In this document: positions 1,393 through 35,282 of the stretch, one piece after another
Numbering within the stretch: the stretch's first letter is position 1
Layout: the number at the start of each line of letters is the position of its first letter
Source: a virus
Virus record (IMG/VR): IMGVR_UViG_3300009163_000098
Span: 1-35,282 of that record
DNA length: 35,282 nt
Strand: one strand, 5' to 3'
Position numbers and translations under genes: made by a program
Notes under the pieces: model-generated
The model's input: only the letters and a program-made list of their open reading frames with translations
What the model was told of the DNA's origin: nothing
Database searches by the model: none

Positions 1393-3873
1393 ATGGCAAA
1401 CACAACCATCACAAACCTGCCTCTTGCAATTGCTCTGACTGGCACAGAGCAGATGCCGGCAGTTCAATCCACCACCACTGTGCGGCTTACGGTCAGCCAG
1501 ATCGCGACCTACACCTCTTCGACCATGGCTGCGCCGGTTGTCACGATTGGCGGCACAGTTTCGGGCGGCACTCCCGGCAACGGATTGTATGTTAGCTCTT
1601 CAGGGACTCTCGCAGATTTCCCTTATGGTGCCGGCATATTCAACGCAATTAAGATTGCGGCTGGATCGAATGGCTCGCCTGTTTTGTTCAATGGTGCTGG
1701 TGGAACGCCGACATCGCTGACGCTGACGCTTGGTTCAATTTCCATCTCCGGTGCGACTAACGGATATTTGCTTTACAACAACAATGGTTCTTTGGGTGCG
1801 GTTTCTCCAACGGCTGCATCAATATCAATTGGTTCTTTAATCTCTGGCGGCACCAGCGGCCAAGGCCTGTATGTTAATGACGCCAACACCCAGTTGGCTC
1901 AGTTCGCCTACGGCACAGGCGTCCGCACGGCGCTTGGCGTCAATGTTGGTTCCGCTGGCGCTCCGGTGCTTTTCAATGGCGCGGGCGGCCTTCCCTCGTC
2001 CATAGACCTTACGAATGGCACCAACTTGCCGATTTCGGCTGGTACGACAGGGAACCTGCCCGTCACTCGCCTTAACTCCGGCACGGGCGCGACAGCTTCA
2101 ACCTATTGGCGTGGCGACGGCACTTGGTCTGCTGTGTCCGGCGGATCCGGCACAGTCACAAGTGTTGCCCAGACTTTTACCGGAGGCATCGTTTCGGTTG
2201 GCGGCTCGCCAATTACGACATCCGGCACGCTGGCTCTAACGGTTGCTGGCACGTCTGGCGGCATCCCATACTTCAGCAGCACGTCAGCGTGGGCTTCATC
2301 CGCTGCATTGACGCTCAATGGCGTCGTGTATGGCGGCGGTGCGGGCGCGTCTCCCGTCTCAACCGCAGCCGGGACCACGGGGCAGGTTCTCATTGCGACA
2401 ACGAGTAATGCACCTTCTTGGGGTCAGGTCCCTCTCGGCACTGGCGTCACGGGGACACTTCCGGTCGCTAACGGCGGCACAGGGCAATCAACCGCCCTCA
2501 CCCAATATGGCGTCATCTATGGCTCGTCTGCGACAGCTATGGGCAATACTGCGGCAGGAACCACGGGTCAGGTTCTCCTTGCAACAACGAGCGCCGCGCC
2601 CTCTTGGGGTCAGGTTTCCCTCACCGCTGGCGTCACGGGAGTGCTGCCAATTGCCAACGGTGGCACGAACCTCTCCTCTACGCCCGCAAACGGCGCGTTG
2701 GACATCGGTAACGGCACAGGGTTTACCCGCACGACGCTGACGGCTGGCACTAACATTACGATCACCAATGGTGCGGGGTCTATTTCTATTGCGGCAAGCG
2801 GCGGTAGCGGCACAGTCAACTCCGGCACGGCAAACCAGCTCGCCTACTACGCCGCGACTGGCACTGCGGTGTCGGGTAACCAATACGCCAACATCAGTGG
2901 CGGCGCTCTGACGCTTGGCACTCAGAGCAGCGCAACGGCTGGCTCCCTCGTCCTCGCCAACACGAATGCTGGTGCCTTCCCCACGACCATCAAGTCCAGC
3001 GCGTCTGCCACAGCCGCGTGGTCACTGACGCTGCCTGTTTCGGCGGGGACGAGCGCCTATGTTTTGTCCACTGACGGGACGGGCGTCACAAGCTGGGTCG
3101 CAGATGGCGGCCTCATTAGCGTAACAGCATTTCCTTCCTCCGGCACATGGACCAAACCCACTACAGGCTTCGGCGCAAACAGCCGCGTGTATATTCAGGC
3201 GTGGGGCGGCGGCGGGTCTGGAGGAAAAGGTGCTGGCGGAAGTGGTGGTGGTGGCGGCGGATACAATGAGGGGTGGTTTTATCTTTCGCAGTTTCCCTCT
3301 TCCACTTATTCGGTAACTGTTGGTACGGGTGCAGCCGCTGTAACAGCGGTATCCACTAATGGGACCACAGGGGGCACCACATACATCGGTGCTGCCGCTA
3401 CGACCTATATTGCAGCATATGGTGGCGGCGGCAGCACTAGTTCTTTCACCTCTGGTGGTGGCGGTGGGCAGTTAAGTGCGGCAACTACAAATAACGCAGG
3501 TCTTCCCGGTAAACCACTTTTGGGGGCTGTCACTACCGTTTGTATTTCTTATTTCCCACCCGGCAATGGCGGAACACCCACACAAACATATGGGTTTGAT
3601 GGGTTCTATCACGGCGGTGGCGGTAGCTCTTCTGGGGTTGCCGGAAATTCTGTTTGGGGCGGCGGCGGCGGCGGTTGTGGATATAATGCTACAGCGGGTG
3701 GGACATCTGTTTTTGGTGGGAATGGCGGCGCAGGGGTCATAGCAGGTCCGGGAATTGCTGGCACAGTACCGGGCGGTGGTGGCGGGGGCACATTTAGCGC
3801 AGTGGCTGGGTCCGCTACGCAATCTGGTAAAGGCGGGGACGGCCAAATGATTATTACCGTCTTCCCGAATTAA
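1393..3873 (+). CDS. Tail fibre protein with LPVANGGTG repeats and glycine-rich tip
   Basis: The 826-residue protein is low-complexity and rich in Gly, Ser, Thr and Ala. Its middle carries imperfect repeats typical of phage fibres: GVTGTLPVANGGTGQS and GVTGVLPIANGGTN, and two copies of GTTGQVLxATTSxAPSWGQV. From about residue 575 comes a TWTKP segment followed by a glycine-rich domain with several GGGG runs, as in Gly-rich adhesin tips that fold as packed polyglycine II helices. Such tips commonly determine receptor specificity. No strong Shine-Dalgarno precedes the ATG, which abuts the upstream stop, so translation is probably coupled. The next gene has its own AAGGAG. The fibre call is firm; the receptor-binding role is inferred. 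Confidence 0.8.
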   Translation: MANTTITNLPLAIALTGTEQMPAVQSTTTVRLTVSQIATYTSSTMAAPVVTIGGTVSGGTPGNGLYVSSSGTLADFPYGAGIFNAIKIAAGSNGSPVLFNGAGGTPTSLTLTLGSISISGATNGYLLYNNNGSLGAVSPTAASISIGSLISGGTSGQGLYVNDANTQLAQFAYGTGVRTALGVNVGSAGAPVLFNGAGGLPSSIDLTNGTNLPISAGTTGNLPVTRLNSGTGATASTYWRGDGTWSAVSGGSGTVTSVAQTFTGGIVSVGGSPITTSGTLALTVAGTSGGIPYFSSTSAWASSAALTLNGVVYGGGAGASPVSTAAGTTGQVLIATTSNAPSWGQVPLGTGVTGTLPVANGGTGQSTALTQYGVIYGSSATAMGNTAAGTTGQVLLATTSAAPSWGQVSLTAGVTGVLPIANGGTNLSSTPANGALDIGNGTGFTRTTLTAGTNITITNGAGSISIAASGGSGTVNSGTANQLAYYAATGTAVSGNQYANISGGALTLGTQSSATAGSLVLANTNAGAFPTTIKSSASATAAWSLTLPVSAGTSAYVLSTDGTGVTSWVADGGLISVTAFPSSGTWTKPTTGFGANSRVYIQAWGGGGSGGKGAGGSGGGGGGYNEGWFYLSQFPSSTYSVTVGTGAAAVTAVSTNGTTGGTTYIGAAATTYIAAYGGGGSTSSFTSGGGGGQLSAATTNNAGLPGKPLLGAVTTVCISYFPPGNGGTPTQTYGFDGFYHGGGGSSSGVAGNSVWGGGGGGCGYNATAGGTSVFGGNGGAGVIAGPGIAGTVPGGGGGGTFSAVAGSATQSGKGGDGQMIITVFPN

Positions 3874-19807: not shown

Positions 19808-20163
19808 TCACCCTCTCCATCCAAGAAAAAGTTGTCGCTTGAGATTTGCCGCACGACATACATCTCTTTTTTGGTTGAGTAGCGAGCCACATTGATTTCA
19901 TAATGAAACTCTGCCAGATGAAAAATCATCATGGCAAAGATCATTGCGTCTCCGTAGTCTGCGATGACATCCTCTTCCGGATCGAAACTCTTCAGCTCTT
20001 TGTGTATGCGAGTTTCAAACCTTTCGGTGTATTCTGGTCCGATCATATCATCAAACATCGGCGACTCACAAACATAAACGATCTCGTCGCCAAGTTTTCT
20101 GAGATGATCAGTTCCAAACCTAAAGTTTGGATGCGGGACGAATACTCGTTTAAACTTTGTCAT
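19804..20163 (-). CDS. Hypothetical protein (119 aa)
   Basis: The 119-residue product has an N-terminal strand-rich part (KRVFVPHPNFRFGTDHLRKLGDEIVYVCESPMFDDM) and a helical part with DPEEDVIADYGDAMIFAMMIFHLAEFHYEINVARY. The phrase VADYGD/FAMMIFHLAE hints at a small alpha/beta fold, but I cannot name a family. It overlaps both neighbours by four bases, which points to coupled translation in the leftward operon. The C-terminus is acidic (DGEGE). Confidence 0.5.
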   Translation of the reverse strand: MTKFKRVFVPHPNFRFGTDHLRKLGDEIVYVCESPMFDDMIGPEYTERFETRIHKELKSFDPEEDVIADYGDAMIFAMMIFHLAEFHYEINVARYSTKKEMYVVRQISSDNFFLDGEGE

Positions 20164-20600
20164 TTGCTCGCCTTGTGAAGTTCCAGCATCAAAGATTCAA
20201 TCTCGACAGAAATATTCAAAAGTTTCGCTGTCAATTTTTTGATGCGCGTCTCTGTCGGATCTGAATAAACCAAAACCTTTTTGCTTACTCTGTTTTTCTT
20301 ATGGTCGATTGGCTTGCTGTGCTGATTTCGATCAATGTGTTTGATGAACTCATACACCGTCGTGGGGTATCTGCGGCCAGAAGGGCCAATCAGCATGCGA
20401 GAACCGCTGACTCGAATTGCGCCATATTTTTTTAGCATGCACAATGCAGCGCTAACGTTGGGCCATTTCTCGGATGGCAGCTGCAAAGCGGTTGCAGGCT
20501 CTTGATAGCTGAATCTGAATCCGGTGTTATTTCGAGCAATCCACTCATAGACGAGCTGAGAGGTGGATTTTTCTCCACCATTGCGGAATCGGTATGCCAT
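20160..20600 (-). CDS. Winged-helix-like protein with C-terminal coiled coil
   Basis: The 146-residue protein starts at an ATG preceded by AAATGGAGAATGCAAA. Residues about 14-66 (SQLVYEWIARNNTGFRF, then PSEKWPNVSAALCMLKKYGAIRVSGSR) follow the helix-turn-strand order of a winged-helix DNA-binding domain. A basic linker (KPIDHKKNRVSKK) and a leucine-rich helix (IKKLTAKLLNISVEIESLMLEL) follow, suggesting a dimer. It is the first gene after the candidate promoter at 20632-20660 and could regulate the small-gene segment. The function is inferred. Confidence 0.5.
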   Translation of the reverse strand: MAYRFRNGGEKSTSQLVYEWIARNNTGFRFSYQEPATALQLPSEKWPNVSAALCMLKKYGAIRVSGSRMLIGPSGRRYPTTVYEFIKHIDRNQHSKPIDHKKNRVSKKVLVYSDPTETRIKKLTAKLLNISVEIESLMLELHKASK

Positions 20601-20631
20601 TTTGCATTCTCCATTTCACATTTACGAAGGC

Positions 20632-20660
20632 ATTATGCCTCGTTTGCCACGGAAAGAAAA
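20632..20660 (-). promoter_or_regulatory. Candidate early-class promoter on the leftward strand
   Basis: Read on the - strand: TTTTCT at 20660-20655, a 17-base spacer, then CATAAT at 20637-20632. The -35 box and spacing equal those of two early modules at 33713 and 35058. A small palindrome (AGGCA-TAATGCCT type, 20624-20643) overlaps the -10 box and could be an operator. The next gene starts at 20600 with the same AAATGGAGA leader. Confidence 0.55.
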
Positions 20661-20665
20661 CTATT

Positions 20666-32853: not shown

Positions 32854-32875
32854 TTAAACACTCCTTGTTCGCTTA

Positions 32876-32936
32876 GGTCTGGGGATCCAGAACCGTTTGT
32901 GGAACGAATATAGCTTGCCCTAGATTTTTATGAAAA
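32876..32936 (-). promoter_or_regulatory. Candidate leftward operon promoter with 5' hairpin leader
   Basis: Read on the - strand: TTTTCA (32936-32931), an 18-base spacer, TATATT (32912-32907), or CTATAT with a 17-base spacer. About twelve bases later a hairpin (32894-32876) pairs GGT-CTGG with CCAG-ACC, one T bulged, loop ATCC. A transcript from this box would start just before the hairpin. The same order of box then hairpin is seen in the four early modules. Leader then runs to AAGGAG and the ATG at 32853. Confidence 0.5.
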
Positions 32937-33012
32937 GCACGAAAATTCTGCACTTTTCTCGAACTATTTTTTAAGTCCCTGTAATTGCTCAGTAATTTTC
33001 TGCACAAAGTTG

Positions 33013-33080
33013 TTGCCTTTCGGTCAGAGATGGTGCATAGTACCTTTGCCGACCGACTCGGCAGAAAATGGAGATAGAAA
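33013..33080 (+). promoter_or_regulatory. Early promoter-leader module 1
   Basis: TTGCCT (33013-33018), 17-base spacer containing GATGGTG, CATAGT (33036-33041). A hairpin TGCCGA-CCGAC-TCGGCA (33047-33063) follows, then AAAATGGAGATAGAAA and the ATG at 33081. A GANTC motif (GACTC, 33055-33059) lies in the hairpin, 13 bases after the -10 box. The transcript should begin just before the hairpin. Confidence 0.68.
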
Positions 33081-33305
33081 ATGACACCTTCAGAAGTTTT
33101 GCTCGCTGTTGCCCGTGCCGAGTTCCGCTGGCCGACCGACCTCGAGCGGGAGATGTTCCCGGGATTCAAAAGCCAAAGCTGGATGATCGCCAGCCTGAAC
33201 AACTACGTCACGGCCATCTTCGATGGGGACTTCATCGAGATCTACAAGGGCAAAGACATCTATCAGTTCCAGGTTTTGCAGATCGATGATCTGATGAGAG
33301 CCTAA
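33081..33305 (+). CDS. Hypothetical early protein (74 aa)
   Basis: First gene of the rightward early cluster, with TGGAGA nine bases before its ATG. The 74-residue product (MTPSEVLLAVARAEFRW, then PGFKSQSWMIASLNNYVTAIFDGDF and YQFQVLQIDDLMRA) is mixed helix and strand and resembles no family I know. It is acidic overall. Its own promoter module and a downstream terminator make it a single-gene unit, as is common for phage host-takeover proteins. Confidence 0.6.
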   Translation: MTPSEVLLAVARAEFRWPTDLEREMFPGFKSQSWMIASLNNYVTAIFDGDFIEIYKGKDIYQFQVLQIDDLMRA

Positions 33306-33319
33306 GCCGGCACAAGGTT

Positions 33320-33357
33320 GGCTGGGTCGAAAAATAATTTCGATTCAGCCACTTTTT
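33320..33357 (+). terminator. Rho-independent terminator after first early gene
   Basis: A 13-bp stem (33320-33332 with 33338-33350, two G-U pairs) joins GGCTGGGTCGAAA to TTTCGATTCAGCC around a five-base AT loop. It is followed by ACTTTTT (33351-33357). Its T-run merges with the start of the next promoter module, so the two adjoining units are separated within about 10 bases. Confidence 0.75.
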
Positions 33358-33361
33358 CTGT

Positions 33362-33431
33362 TTGCCTTTCTGACGGAATGGCGCATAACATCTTTACCGG
33401 CCGATTCGAGCCGCCTAAATGGAGAATGAAA
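33362..33431 (+). promoter_or_regulatory. Early promoter-leader module 2
   Basis: TTGCCT (33362-33367), 16-base spacer with GAATGGCG, CATAAC (33384-33389). Hairpin 33398-33413 pairs CGGC-CG with CG-GCCG, one A bulged, loop ATT. A GATTC (GANTC, 33403-33407) lies 13 bases after the -10 box, as in module 1. Leader AAATGGAGAATGAAA leads to the ATG at 33432. Confidence 0.68.
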
Positions 33432-33689
33432 ATGACCCCGACAATCAACACCAACGGCACCCACCCCGACGACCTCTGCAAGACCTACGGTGCGGCATCT
33501 GATGCCATCCGTACCGCCATTCGTCTGGTGGTCGATATTCAGCCACGTCTGCGCGATTACCCCACACGAGTCGAATGGGCTCAGGCCAACCTTGCCCACG
33601 CTCGCTGGGTCGTGGCCTTGGGCAAGATCCGTGGTGAGCTGGAGGACACCGAGGTCCAAATTTACGATCAGGTGTATGATCAAAAATAA
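33432..33689 (+). CDS. Hypothetical early protein (85 aa)
   Basis: I chose the ATG at 33432 because it follows TGGAGAATGAAA at the spacing used by its sister genes; the open frame runs back to 33318 but through the terminator and promoter. The product is helical: LCKTYGAASDAIRTAIRLVVDIQPRLRDYPTRVEWAQANLAHARWVVALGKIRGELEDTEVQIYDQVYDQK has a long amphipathic core and acidic end. No family is recognised. It sits alone behind its own promoter module. Confidence 0.6.
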   Translation: MTPTINTNGTHPDDLCKTYGAASDAIRTAIRLVVDIQPRLRDYPTRVEWAQANLAHARWVVALGKIRGELEDTEVQIYDQVYDQK

Positions 33690-33712
33690 TTTACCGCACC
33701 CCATCTTTTCTG

Positions 33713-33781
33713 TTTTCTTCTCTGACGTAATGGCGCATAAAGATTCTGCCGGCGAGTTCGCCGCATAAATGGAGATCGAAA
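33713..33781 (+). promoter_or_regulatory. Early promoter-leader module 3
   Basis: TTTTCT (33713-33718), 17-base spacer with GTAATGGCG, CATAAA (33736-33741), directly followed by GATTC (GANTC, 33742-33746). Hairpin 33750-33763 pairs CGGCG with CGCCG around AGTT. Leader ATAAATGGAGATCGAAA leads to the ATG at 33782. Confidence 0.7.
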
Positions 33782-34078
33782 ATGTTTCACACTCACCCAA
33801 TCGACGAAGTTGCAGTCAACGTCTCTGGCACCGACTATTATGCCTACGGCGAGATCCAAGTTGGCTACTTCGTCGAGCCAGCTGACCCGAGCGTCGGCTA
33901 CTTCCAGAGCCAAATCATCCTCGATGGGTTCGGTGGCGCAAAGCTCGAGCTCGTCGACGACGAGGGCAACATCACCGTCGTTTTCGCCGCCGAGGACAGC
34001 GACCTCTGGAAGCAGGTCACCAAGACCTTCTGCGACCAGTCGCTGATCGAGGACATCATCTACAGCGAGCAGTTCTGA
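33782..34078 (+). CDS. Hypothetical early acidic protein (98 aa)
   Basis: The ATG follows the AAATGGAGATCGAAA leader. The 98-residue protein is acidic and beta-rich: IDEVAVNVSGTDYYAYGEIQVGYFVEPADPSVGYFQSQIILDGFGGAKLELVDDEGNITVVFAAEDSDLW. It may be a small beta sandwich, and its charge would suit a DNA-mimic or inhibitor, but this is only suggested. Codons here end more often in C or G than in the late genes. No family is recognised. Confidence 0.6.
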   Translation: MFHTHPIDEVAVNVSGTDYYAYGEIQVGYFVEPADPSVGYFQSQIILDGFGGAKLELVDDEGNITVVFAAEDSDLWKQVTKTFCDQSLIEDIIYSEQF

Positions 34079-34088
34079 CCCTCGCAAA

Positions 34089-34106
34089 GGGGAGCCAAGG
34101 CTCCCC
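34089..34106 (+). promoter_or_regulatory. Strong intergenic hairpin between two early genes
   Basis: Perfect 8-bp stem GGGGAGCC/GGCTCCCC with an AA loop (more realistically 7 bp around CAAG). No T-run follows, so termination is doubtful. It lies where module hairpins sit, 27 bases before an AAATGGAGAATGAAA leader start site, but there is no promoter box upstream. It may protect or split the transcript. Confidence 0.6.
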
Positions 34107-34132
34107 ACTCACCCCGCAAATGGAGAATGAAA

Positions 34133-34411
34133 ATGGCTCGTCCGCGCAAAATCCACCCCTCCCTGCTCTCCGTCAGCCGCAGCCGTTTCCCGGCTGAGAT
34201 CGTCAATGACAGCGAGAAGCGTGGCCAGCTGGCTGCGCCCAAGGTGTTGTTCGGCGAATGCTCCCGCTATGCGGTGGCGCCGATCCACACACGCTTCAGC
34301 ACTATCGTTTGGTTCGTCTGGGACGCCGAGCACGAATACAGCTCGCTGAAGGCTGCCGAGATCATCCGCCAAGAAAACAGCTTCGAGGAAGCTGTCGTCG
34401 ATCTGAATTGA
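34133..34411 (+). CDS. Hypothetical early protein (92 aa)
   Basis: The ATG at 34133 is chosen because GGAGAATGAAA lies just upstream; an ATG at 34127 would fall in that leader. The 92-residue product begins with a basic stretch (MARPRKIHPSLLSVSRSRFPAEIV) and continues APIHTRFSTIVWFVWDAEHEYSSLKAAEIIRQENSFEEAVVDLN. The basic N-terminus may touch nucleic acid. It is co-transcribed with the next two genes (GAGGAGG then ATG, then a TGATG overlap). No family is recognised. Confidence 0.58.
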   Translation: MARPRKIHPSLLSVSRSRFPAEIVNDSEKRGQLAAPKVLFGECSRYAVAPIHTRFSTIVWFVWDAEHEYSSLKAAEIIRQENSFEEAVVDLN

Positions 34412-34421
34412 GGAGGTTCCA

Positions 34422-34625
34422 ATGATCCCGCAAATTATCTGCACCACAAAGATCGTCGAAGGCATTTATTGCGTCTTTTACTTCGGCAAGGCAGCTGGCT
34501 GGGTCTACCCCGCCACCACTCAAAACGGTGACAAAGTTTTCAAGGCTGCGACTGTTCACCACTGCACCAAGCATTTTGATGATCTGGAGAGCGCCGAGCA
34601 CTGGCTGATCGGGGAGTATTACTGA
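34422..34625 (+). CDS. Hypothetical early protein (67 aa)
   Basis: Start ATG with a strong GAGGAGG site. The 67-residue product (MIPQIICTTKIVEGIYCVFYFGKAAGWVYPATTQNGDKVF... HHCTKHFDDLESAEHWLIGEYY) is beta-rich at the start and helical at the end. It contains three cysteines, too scattered for a ribbon. Its stop overlaps the ATG of the endonuclease V gene (TGATG), so both are translated together. The function is unknown; perhaps an accessory to that enzyme. Confidence 0.58.
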   Translation: MIPQIICTTKIVEGIYCVFYFGKAAGWVYPATTQNGDKVFKAATVHHCTKHFDDLESAEHWLIGEYY

Positions 34626-35044
34626 TGACACGCATCAACTGCATTCCTACGCAAGACCTGCACAAAAAGCACCTCATCGCTGAGTATCACGAGATCACTC
34701 GCGTTTTTGGGCTCGTCAAGAGGCTGCTGGCCTCCGGCAAGGATCCGGCCAACTGTGGCGCTCCGGACCAATACGTCCTCGGCACCGGCCATGTGCGCTT
34801 TTTCTACACGCGGCTGGCTTGGATCCAGAACCGCATTGTGGACCTCACAATCGAGATGGACAGCCGTGGCATCAAGGCAAAGGTAGAGATGATCCAGGGC
34901 ATTGCTGACGGAATCCCTGAGCGGTTCTTCGGGGATTGGGAGCCGACAGAGGCTGACATCGCCCTGAACAAGGAGCGCATCGACGAGCGCCTTGTGGACA
35001 TGGCGGCCAAGCCAAAAAGAAAAGTGCCCACTTTAGACGATTAG
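34625..35044 (+). CDS. denV: T4 endonuclease V-like pyrimidine dimer DNA glycosylase
   Basis: The 139-residue protein aligns by eye with T4 DenV along its length: MTRIN, then HLIAEYHEITRVFG, GTGHVRFFY, LTIEMDSRGI and FFGDWEP. The catalytic N-terminal Thr2, Arg3, His16, Glu23 and Arg26 are kept; T4 Arg22 is His here. In T4 the enzyme cuts the glycosyl bond at UV-made cyclobutane dimers and nicks the abasic site. It suits a phage exposed to sunlight. It is expressed from the early block rather than with the replication genes. The Lys-rich end (KPKRKVP) is shorter than in T4. Confidence 0.9.
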   Translation: MTRINCIPTQDLHKKHLIAEYHEITRVFGLVKRLLASGKDPANCGAPDQYVLGTGHVRFFYTRLAWIQNRIVDLTIEMDSRGIKAKVEMIQGIADGIPERFFGDWEPTEADIALNKERIDERLVDMAAKPKRKVPTLDD

Positions 35045-35057
35045 GGCAATATTTCTG

Positions 35058-35126
35058 TTTTCTTTTCTGTCCGAATGGTGCATAAAGATTCTGCCAGCGA
35101 GGCGCTGGCCTAAATGGAGATCGAAA
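35058..35126 (+). promoter_or_regulatory. Early promoter-leader module 4
   Basis: TTTTCT (35058-35063), 17-base spacer with GAATGGTG, CATAAA (35081-35086), directly followed by GATTC (GANTC, 35087-35091). Hairpin 35093-35109 pairs GCCAGCG with CGCTGGC, loop AGG. Leader TAAATGGAGATCGAAA leads to the ATG at 35127. Confidence 0.72.
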
Positions 35127-35282
35127 ATGACCAACATGACAAACGCTTCCCTCGCCACGCAGTTCGCCCTCGTCCACGCTGAAGTCGAAGCTGCCAAGGC
35201 CAAGCTCGAATCCCTCCGCACCCAGATCCTCGAGCAGGGCATGGAGCGCATCGATGGCGACCGCTGCTATGTCCTCGTTTCT
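35127..35282 (+). CDS. Hypothetical early protein, 3' partial (52 codons visible)
   Basis: Starting at the ATG after module 4, the frame stays open to the window edge. The visible protein begins MTNMTNASLATQFALVHAE and continues through an Ala/Glu/Lys-rich helix (VEAAKAKLESLRTQILEQG) to DGDRCYVLVS. The first part looks like a coiled-coil helix. A second in-frame ATG at codon 4 is possible. No family is recognised from this fragment. Confidence 0.6.
   Translation, partial: MTNMTNASLATQFALVHAEVEAAKAKLESLRTQILEQGMERIDGDRCYVLVS

Follow-up and report, generated by a model that had tools for sequence, protein, structure and literature searches.

A repeated module, in which a sigma70-like promoter sequence is followed by a short hairpin at the predicted transcript start and by a fixed Shine-Dalgarno (SD) leader, precedes small genes in an uncultured phage, and our analysis supports the conclusion that its hairpin is selected as a shape and not as a sequence. 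By computation we find the repeated architecture, selection for pairing, a link between the hairpin and the predicted transcription start (+1), conservation in related phages and one gain or loss of a gene at the leader. By analogy with known mRNA stabilizers, we lean slightly towards a function in which a generic 5'-terminal hairpin on early transcripts would block 5'-end-dependent decay.

A module repeated four times in one phage fragment

The window (the whole stretch of DNA that was analysed) comprises the 35,282 bp of an IMG/VR virus record, a phage fragment with a G+C content of 52%. Structural genes run rightward and are followed by leftward replication genes for a SNF2-type helicase, a DUF5906 protein, a DnaE-type polymerase with a PHP domain, ThyX and a PNKP-type phosphatase, a set that also includes relatives of Pam3 gp33 and gp34. 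The gp34-like gene is divergent from a series of small rightward genes that starts at 33081. The 689-aa structural protein has its top match (59%) in MW202675, a circular 61-kb uncultured record, and its next matches (~30%) in Roseobacter, Octadecabacter, Pelagibacter and cyanobacterial phages. The module region had zero BLAST matches among cultured phages, and the early regions of the relatives described below gave short DNA matches only, including to Roseobacter, Aminobacter and Rhizobium phages, which hint weakly at a host among the Alphaproteobacteria.

Ahead of the small rightward genes, which are presumed to be early, four rightward copies follow the same order: a -35-like box, 17 bp, CATAAN or CATAGT, 6 bp, a purine (predicted +1), the hairpin, the leader AAATGGAGA and ATG.

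33013-33047, plus strand: module 1 promoter, -35-like TTGCCT (33013-33018), 17 bp, -10 CATAGT (33036-33041)
33048-33062, plus strand: module 1 hairpin GCCGA-CCGAC-TCGGC, beginning at predicted +1 33048
33066-33083, plus strand: module 1 leader AAATGGAGA with SD GGAG; ATG at 33081, 74-aa gene
33319-33351, plus strand: intrinsic-terminator-like hairpin with a T tract, running into the module 2 promoter
33361-33395, plus strand: module 2 promoter, -35-like TTTGCC (33361-33366), -10 CATAAC (33384-33389)
33396-33413, plus strand: module 2 predicted +1 (33396) and bulged hairpin CGGCCG-ATT-CGaGCCG (33398-33413)
33417-33434, plus strand: module 2 leader; ATG at 33432, 85-aa gene
33713-33747, plus strand: module 3 promoter, -35-like TTTTCT (33713-33718), -10 CATAAA (33736-33741)
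33748-33764, plus strand: module 3 hairpin, at predicted +1 33748
33767-33784, plus strand: module 3 leader; ATG at 33782, 98-aa gene
35058-35092, plus strand: module 4 promoter, -35-like TTTTCT (35058-35063), -10 CATAAA (35081-35086)
35093-35109, plus strand: module 4 hairpin GCCAGCG-AGG-CGCTGGC, at predicted +1 35093
35112-35129, plus strand: module 4 leader; ATG at 35127, gene whose orthologs follow modules in other phages

The hairpins start 0-2 nt past the predicted +1 purine, and the predicted 5' UTRs are very short (about 33-36 nt). The module 4 hairpin itself contains GAGG. A scan based on architecture only (promoter, purine +1, hairpin within 5 nt, SD and ATG) recovered the four modules and nothing else in the window, compared with an average of 0.05 in 40 shuffled windows, and so confirms the four copies and positions proposed in an earlier sequence-only reading. 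That reading gave the spacer as 16-17 bp; it is 17 bp in all four copies when the module 2 -35 box is read as TTTGCC. It was also right that the arms differ and yet pair in every copy, although bulges interrupt the stems of modules 2 and 3.

The stretches from +1 to SD of the four modules have a mean minimum folding energy of -8.7 kcal/mol, against -3.4 +/- 1.0 kcal/mol for shuffled sequences (p = 2e-4, the lowest value that 5,000 shuffles allow). Of 31 gene starts checked elsewhere in the window, only 3 are preceded by a structure at least as stable as -6 kcal/mol, and one of these is the promoterless variant discussed below. Rfam covariance models had zero matches up to E = 1 in window positions 32860-35282.

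The layout recurs in related uncultured phages

Relatives were gathered from viral contigs by means of the gp34-like protein and DNA patterns, followed by a weight-matrix filter, and the hairpin formed no part of any of these searches. Among the matches listed, about ten related uncultured phages share the module layout, each carrying no more than five copies. The architecture scan found five copies in G001 (L386), five in G003 (L387) and four in L060; among the matches listed, one to three copies each occur in L024, L040, L043, L044/L045, L053/L054, L096 and L275, and weaker or longer forms in L105/L111/L113/L118/L149, L335, L355, L356 and L381. In several relatives the modules occupy the same site as in the window, divergent from the gp34-like gene. 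Their -10 boxes are CATAAT-like or TTTAAT-like, and the conservation of the TTTTCTTTT-like box is partly a selection effect because several of the scans required it.

The matches listed for two wider DNA patterns were mostly due to chance, and we kept only those that passed the weight matrix and had an SD. The pattern ATGGYGCATA...AAATGGAGA gave 33 stretches in viral contigs, all of which, apart from those of contig 3300011339_000794 and L024, seem on inspection to be chance or unrelated coding sequence. In nine relatives that are cultured or have complete genomes, the architecture model was applied to long stretches and gave 0 or 1 match each, none of them convincing.

Stems change in sequence and keep their pairing

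Adding the related phages bears out the claim that the hairpin is under selection for structure. Across 24 distinct module copies the mean folding energy is -8.6 kcal/mol, compared with -3.6 +/- 0.4 kcal/mol for shuffles. If the 5' half of one module is joined to the 3' half of another, the stem is lost and the mean weakens from the native -8.6 to -5.4, a gain for native partners of 3.24 kcal/mol, whereas shuffled leaders put through the same test give 0.29 +/- 0.39, with a maximum of 1.25 in 300 trials. Each arm therefore pairs with its own partner and not with the arms of other copies. We rely on this swap, with its shuffled null, and not on a plain count of arm pairing, which is biased in that its arms are defined by the fold.

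The stems are short (4-8 bp) and share no common sequence, and the loops show some similarity within clades (GATTC, GCGA, GAG). Among seven stems selected for equal geometry, two-sided change is seen at 7/7 pairs, and 95.9% of cells pair, versus 65% in column shuffles and 23-46% when the partner is slid by 1-3 columns. Orthologous genes follow stems that differ and are each still paired. For the module 4 gene the stems are CCAGCG/CGCTGG in the window, CTGG/CCAG in L387, CTGGCC/GGtCCAG in L043 and CGGGGCA/TGCCTCG in L275; orthologs in L060 and L096 have GAGG/CCTC and GGCGGT/ACCGCC, and before the DUF932 genes stand GCCAGCG/CGTTGGC in G001 and TGGC/GCCA in L387. Exchange of whole modules by recombination could explain part of these differences, but not the pairing kept in each. 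The case in which one arm changes alone, named in the sequence-only reading as counting against selection, does occur to a limited extent, as a mismatch or bulge in a few copies (L39b, L43, L44 and module 2) that retain the stem. Because the letters of the hairpin vary between copies while its pairing is kept, the hairpin appears to work as a shape.

Chance hairpins in GC-rich leaders might be suspected from such short stems, and are made highly improbable by the shuffled nulls, the architecture scan and the two-sided changes.

The hairpin is tied to the predicted transcript start

With the 5' end inferred from the -10 box only, pairing begins 0-5 nt (median 1) from the predicted +1 in the 24 copies, an offset tight enough to support the earlier proposal that the hairpin lies at the 5' end of the transcript. 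The gap from the last paired base to the SD core is 6-14 nt, mostly 6-7, and so the hairpin is tied more tightly to the predicted +1 than to the SD. In folds of 75 nt, which take in the gene start, other pairings compete with the hairpin and the SD is no more accessible than in shuffles. We rejected the module stems as terminators, given that no U tract follows them; a terminator scan found an upstream terminator-like hairpin at only module 2 among the four modules of the window.

Copies that lack a promoter or a hairpin

The earlier count of four promoter-leader copies holds for all four, but further leaders exist, and two features in the window separate the parts of the module.

34089-34126, plus strand: promoterless variant, hairpin GGGGAGCC-AA-GGCTCCCC (34089-34106), then AAATGGAGA leader (34118-34126)
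20600-20661, minus strand: promoter of the module type with a AAATGGAGA leader and no hairpin, preceding the 146-aa gene 20160-20600

The leader at 34118-34126 is the fifth rightward AAATGGAGA leader of the window and has its own hairpin. Two more exact copies of AAATGGAGA on the minus strand (19113 and 31478) lack such a promoter. A second promoterless hairpin with a AAATGGAGA leader was observed between genes in L386 (near 3313-3366; stem GTGGGAGC-TTCG-GCTCCCAC). These promoterless hairpin leaders may be processing sites or 3' stabilizers of the upstream gene.

Members of the same promoter family without a hairpin include the minus-strand promoter at 20661 in the window, L046 and the L106/L114/L136 group, and their existence indicates that the hairpin is not essential to the promoter. 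L106, L114 and L136 form a sister group in which several near-identical promoters per contig are each followed by a short hairpin-less leader (TTGAAACGAAGGAGA), and these leaders are a natural control for the hairpin.

A proposed decay shield and its alternatives

From sequence we infer promoter activity, early timing, the exact +1 and a protective function. The modules would act as host-type (sigma70-like) early promoters, with transcription beginning at, or 1-5 nt before, the short GC-rich hairpin that is followed by a single-stranded SD leader. The hairpin would hold each early mRNA in a base-paired form at its 5' end, such that the host pyrophosphohydrolase RppH and the 5'-end-dependent RNase E (or RNase J where present) might act poorly on it, which would yield longer-lived messages despite the very short 5' UTRs. 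The idea that the hairpin protects the mRNA, already raised in the sequence-only reading, fits known biology: a 5' hairpin has been reported to stabilize bla mRNA and to impede RppH, and the RppH of B. subtilis requires at least 2 unpaired 5' nucleotides (PMC3997798). The 2-5 unpaired 5' nucleotides that precede the stem in L060 modules would weaken such a block. Also counting against a decay shield are the hairpin-less promoters of the same family (window 20661, L046 and L106/L114/L136), the competing pairings in the 75-nt folds and an SD that is no more open than in shuffles.

A broader and more tentative proposal, which we hold at somewhat below even, is that in one clade of uncultured phages the module evolved into a portable cassette for gene expression. 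Nearly every early promoter would be fused to a 5' hairpin cap free of sequence constraint, any gene placed behind the leader would gain a decay-resistant mRNA, and pairing alone would maintain the hairpin in phages that otherwise have little in common here. If true, the module would represent a natural and repeated use of the 5' hairpin stabilizer principle, with many differing stems serving as evolutionary replicates in one phage group. It would also provide a sequence signature for locating early regions in uncultured phages, and the strength of the constraint that 5'-end-dependent decay places on phage mRNAs could be tested in a natural series with and without hairpins on one promoter type.

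The strongest competitor, though an unlikely one, is a role in translation, in which the hairpin, folded as an independent domain just ahead of the SD, prevents the leader from pairing elsewhere, or is a ribosome standby element. The gap from hairpin to SD core is indeed narrow (6-10 nt in 22/24 copies), and a purely 5'-end function needs no promoterless copies unless the RNA is processed there, so the hairpin leaders at 34089-34126 in the window and near 3313 in L386 favour translation. However, the predicted accessibility of the SD with the native hairpin is not clearly above that of shuffled UTRs, and the hairpin is held more closely to the +1 than to the SD.

We give rather less credence to the module being chiefly a recombination device like those of T4-type phages, in which near-identical promoters and leaders permit gene swaps and the stem-loop is secondary. 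One clear event speaks for it. The window and its near relative G001 are 92-96% identical in the module region and differ at the leader repeat by the gain or loss of one gene: G001 has an additional 76-aa gene plus a promoterless hairpin and leader, and the alignment is interrupted within the 19-bp leader repeat. As a result, promoter module 1 precedes the 74-aa gene in the window, and the promoterless hairpin leader precedes its ortholog in G001. The terminator before module 2 points the same way, but the stems themselves lack a U tract and only 1/4 of the window modules has an upstream terminator. Moreover, recombination needs sequence identity, yet the stems vary while pairing persists. Gene exchange can be compatible with a decay shield.

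A protein site is improbable, be it an operator at +1, an antitermination site of the HK022 put kind or a hairpin promoter of the N4 type, used by a virion RNA polymerase. An inverted repeat at the transcript start and the within-clade similarity of loops would suit such a site, but arms and loops differ within one genome and change on both sides, which argues against sequence-specific recognition, and a conserved -35/-10 pair lies upstream. N4-type promoters have conserved loop and stem letters; the loops here vary. The T7-type RNA polymerase family PF00940 was unmatched in 14 records, a weak result as most records are partial and the control was also without a match.

Relation to known elements

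A search of the literature for the layout or function of the module found no description. No family described so far was found to combine promoter, 5' hairpin and fixed leader in exactly this way, but the earlier statement that none is known with this layout is too strong for the parts, which have been described before.

T4-type phages reportedly carry promoter-early stem-loops (PeSLs), said to have been described by Arbiol in 2010 and Comeau in 2014. Of the known cassettes these are the nearest: a repeated sigma70-like early promoter and a stem-loop lie among small variable genes, with gain and loss at the repeats. The predicted promoters here (four in the window, five in G001 and five in G003) likewise recur between small genes, and the event described above is one clear case of gene shuffling, with its break in the leader repeat. 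In citing text such as PMC4503421, however, the PeSL stem-loop is a transcription terminator, whereas the module stems have no T run after them, lie between +1 and SD, and have arms that change yet pair.

The nearest known mechanism is that of 5'-terminal stem-loop stabilizers, as in ompA, papA and hairpins added to bla (reviewed in PMC3997798). In the module, too, a short hairpin of low sequence specificity lies at or close to the predicted 5' end, with a single-stranded SD leader downstream, and the arm-swap and matched-geometry tests agree that pairing matters and sequence does not. Unlike these single host genes or constructs, the module recurs as a phage cassette whose promoter and leader are fixed, and for which stabilization is only proposed.

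In Cluster K mycobacteriophages many genes are preceded by a conserved SD-like leader (SAS), and immediately upstream of roughly half of these leaders lies an inverted repeat (ESAS), an arrangement that resembles the one here. ESAS are 17-bp repeats with a consensus sequence, and their authors considered RNA pairing to be poorly supported (PMC3203893), whereas pairing is supported here and the stem sequence is not conserved. Neither the 13-bp GGGATAGGAGCCC repeat nor the 17-bp consensus inverted repeats are present, the leader being AAATGGAGA. The intergenic NUUCGG hairpins of T4 gene 32 and phage 7-11 are also phage stem-loops ahead of a gene, with mRNA stabilization proposed or shown (PMC8948821), but they use one fixed type of tetraloop and are not tied to a promoter start, whereas the loops here vary and the hairpin sits at the predicted +1.

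Other features of the early regions

On the minus strand at 32880-32940 of the window, the divergent gp34 operon has a leftward promoter-like sequence and a leader hairpin (TCTGG-ATCC-CCAGA), which relatives including L040 also have. In L058, L059, L062 and L063, upstream of the gp34-like gene, the same -35/-10 type as in the modules is followed by longer GC-rich leaders with repeated hairpins (CGGGACGGGTCGCCC...), which are possibly structured non-coding RNAs. The early region of G001, the closest relative, extends past where the window ends and encodes a 107-aa protein with sigma-70 region 4 only (L386 7752-8072; PF04545, E 6e-7; PHROG sigma factor). This protein could change -35 recognition, which is of interest given the unusual TTTTCTTTT -35 boxes. 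Finally, between modules 3 and 4 of the window (34625-35041) lies a gene for a 139-aa pyrimidine-dimer DNA glycosylase of the endonuclease V type (PF03013, PHROG 1183).
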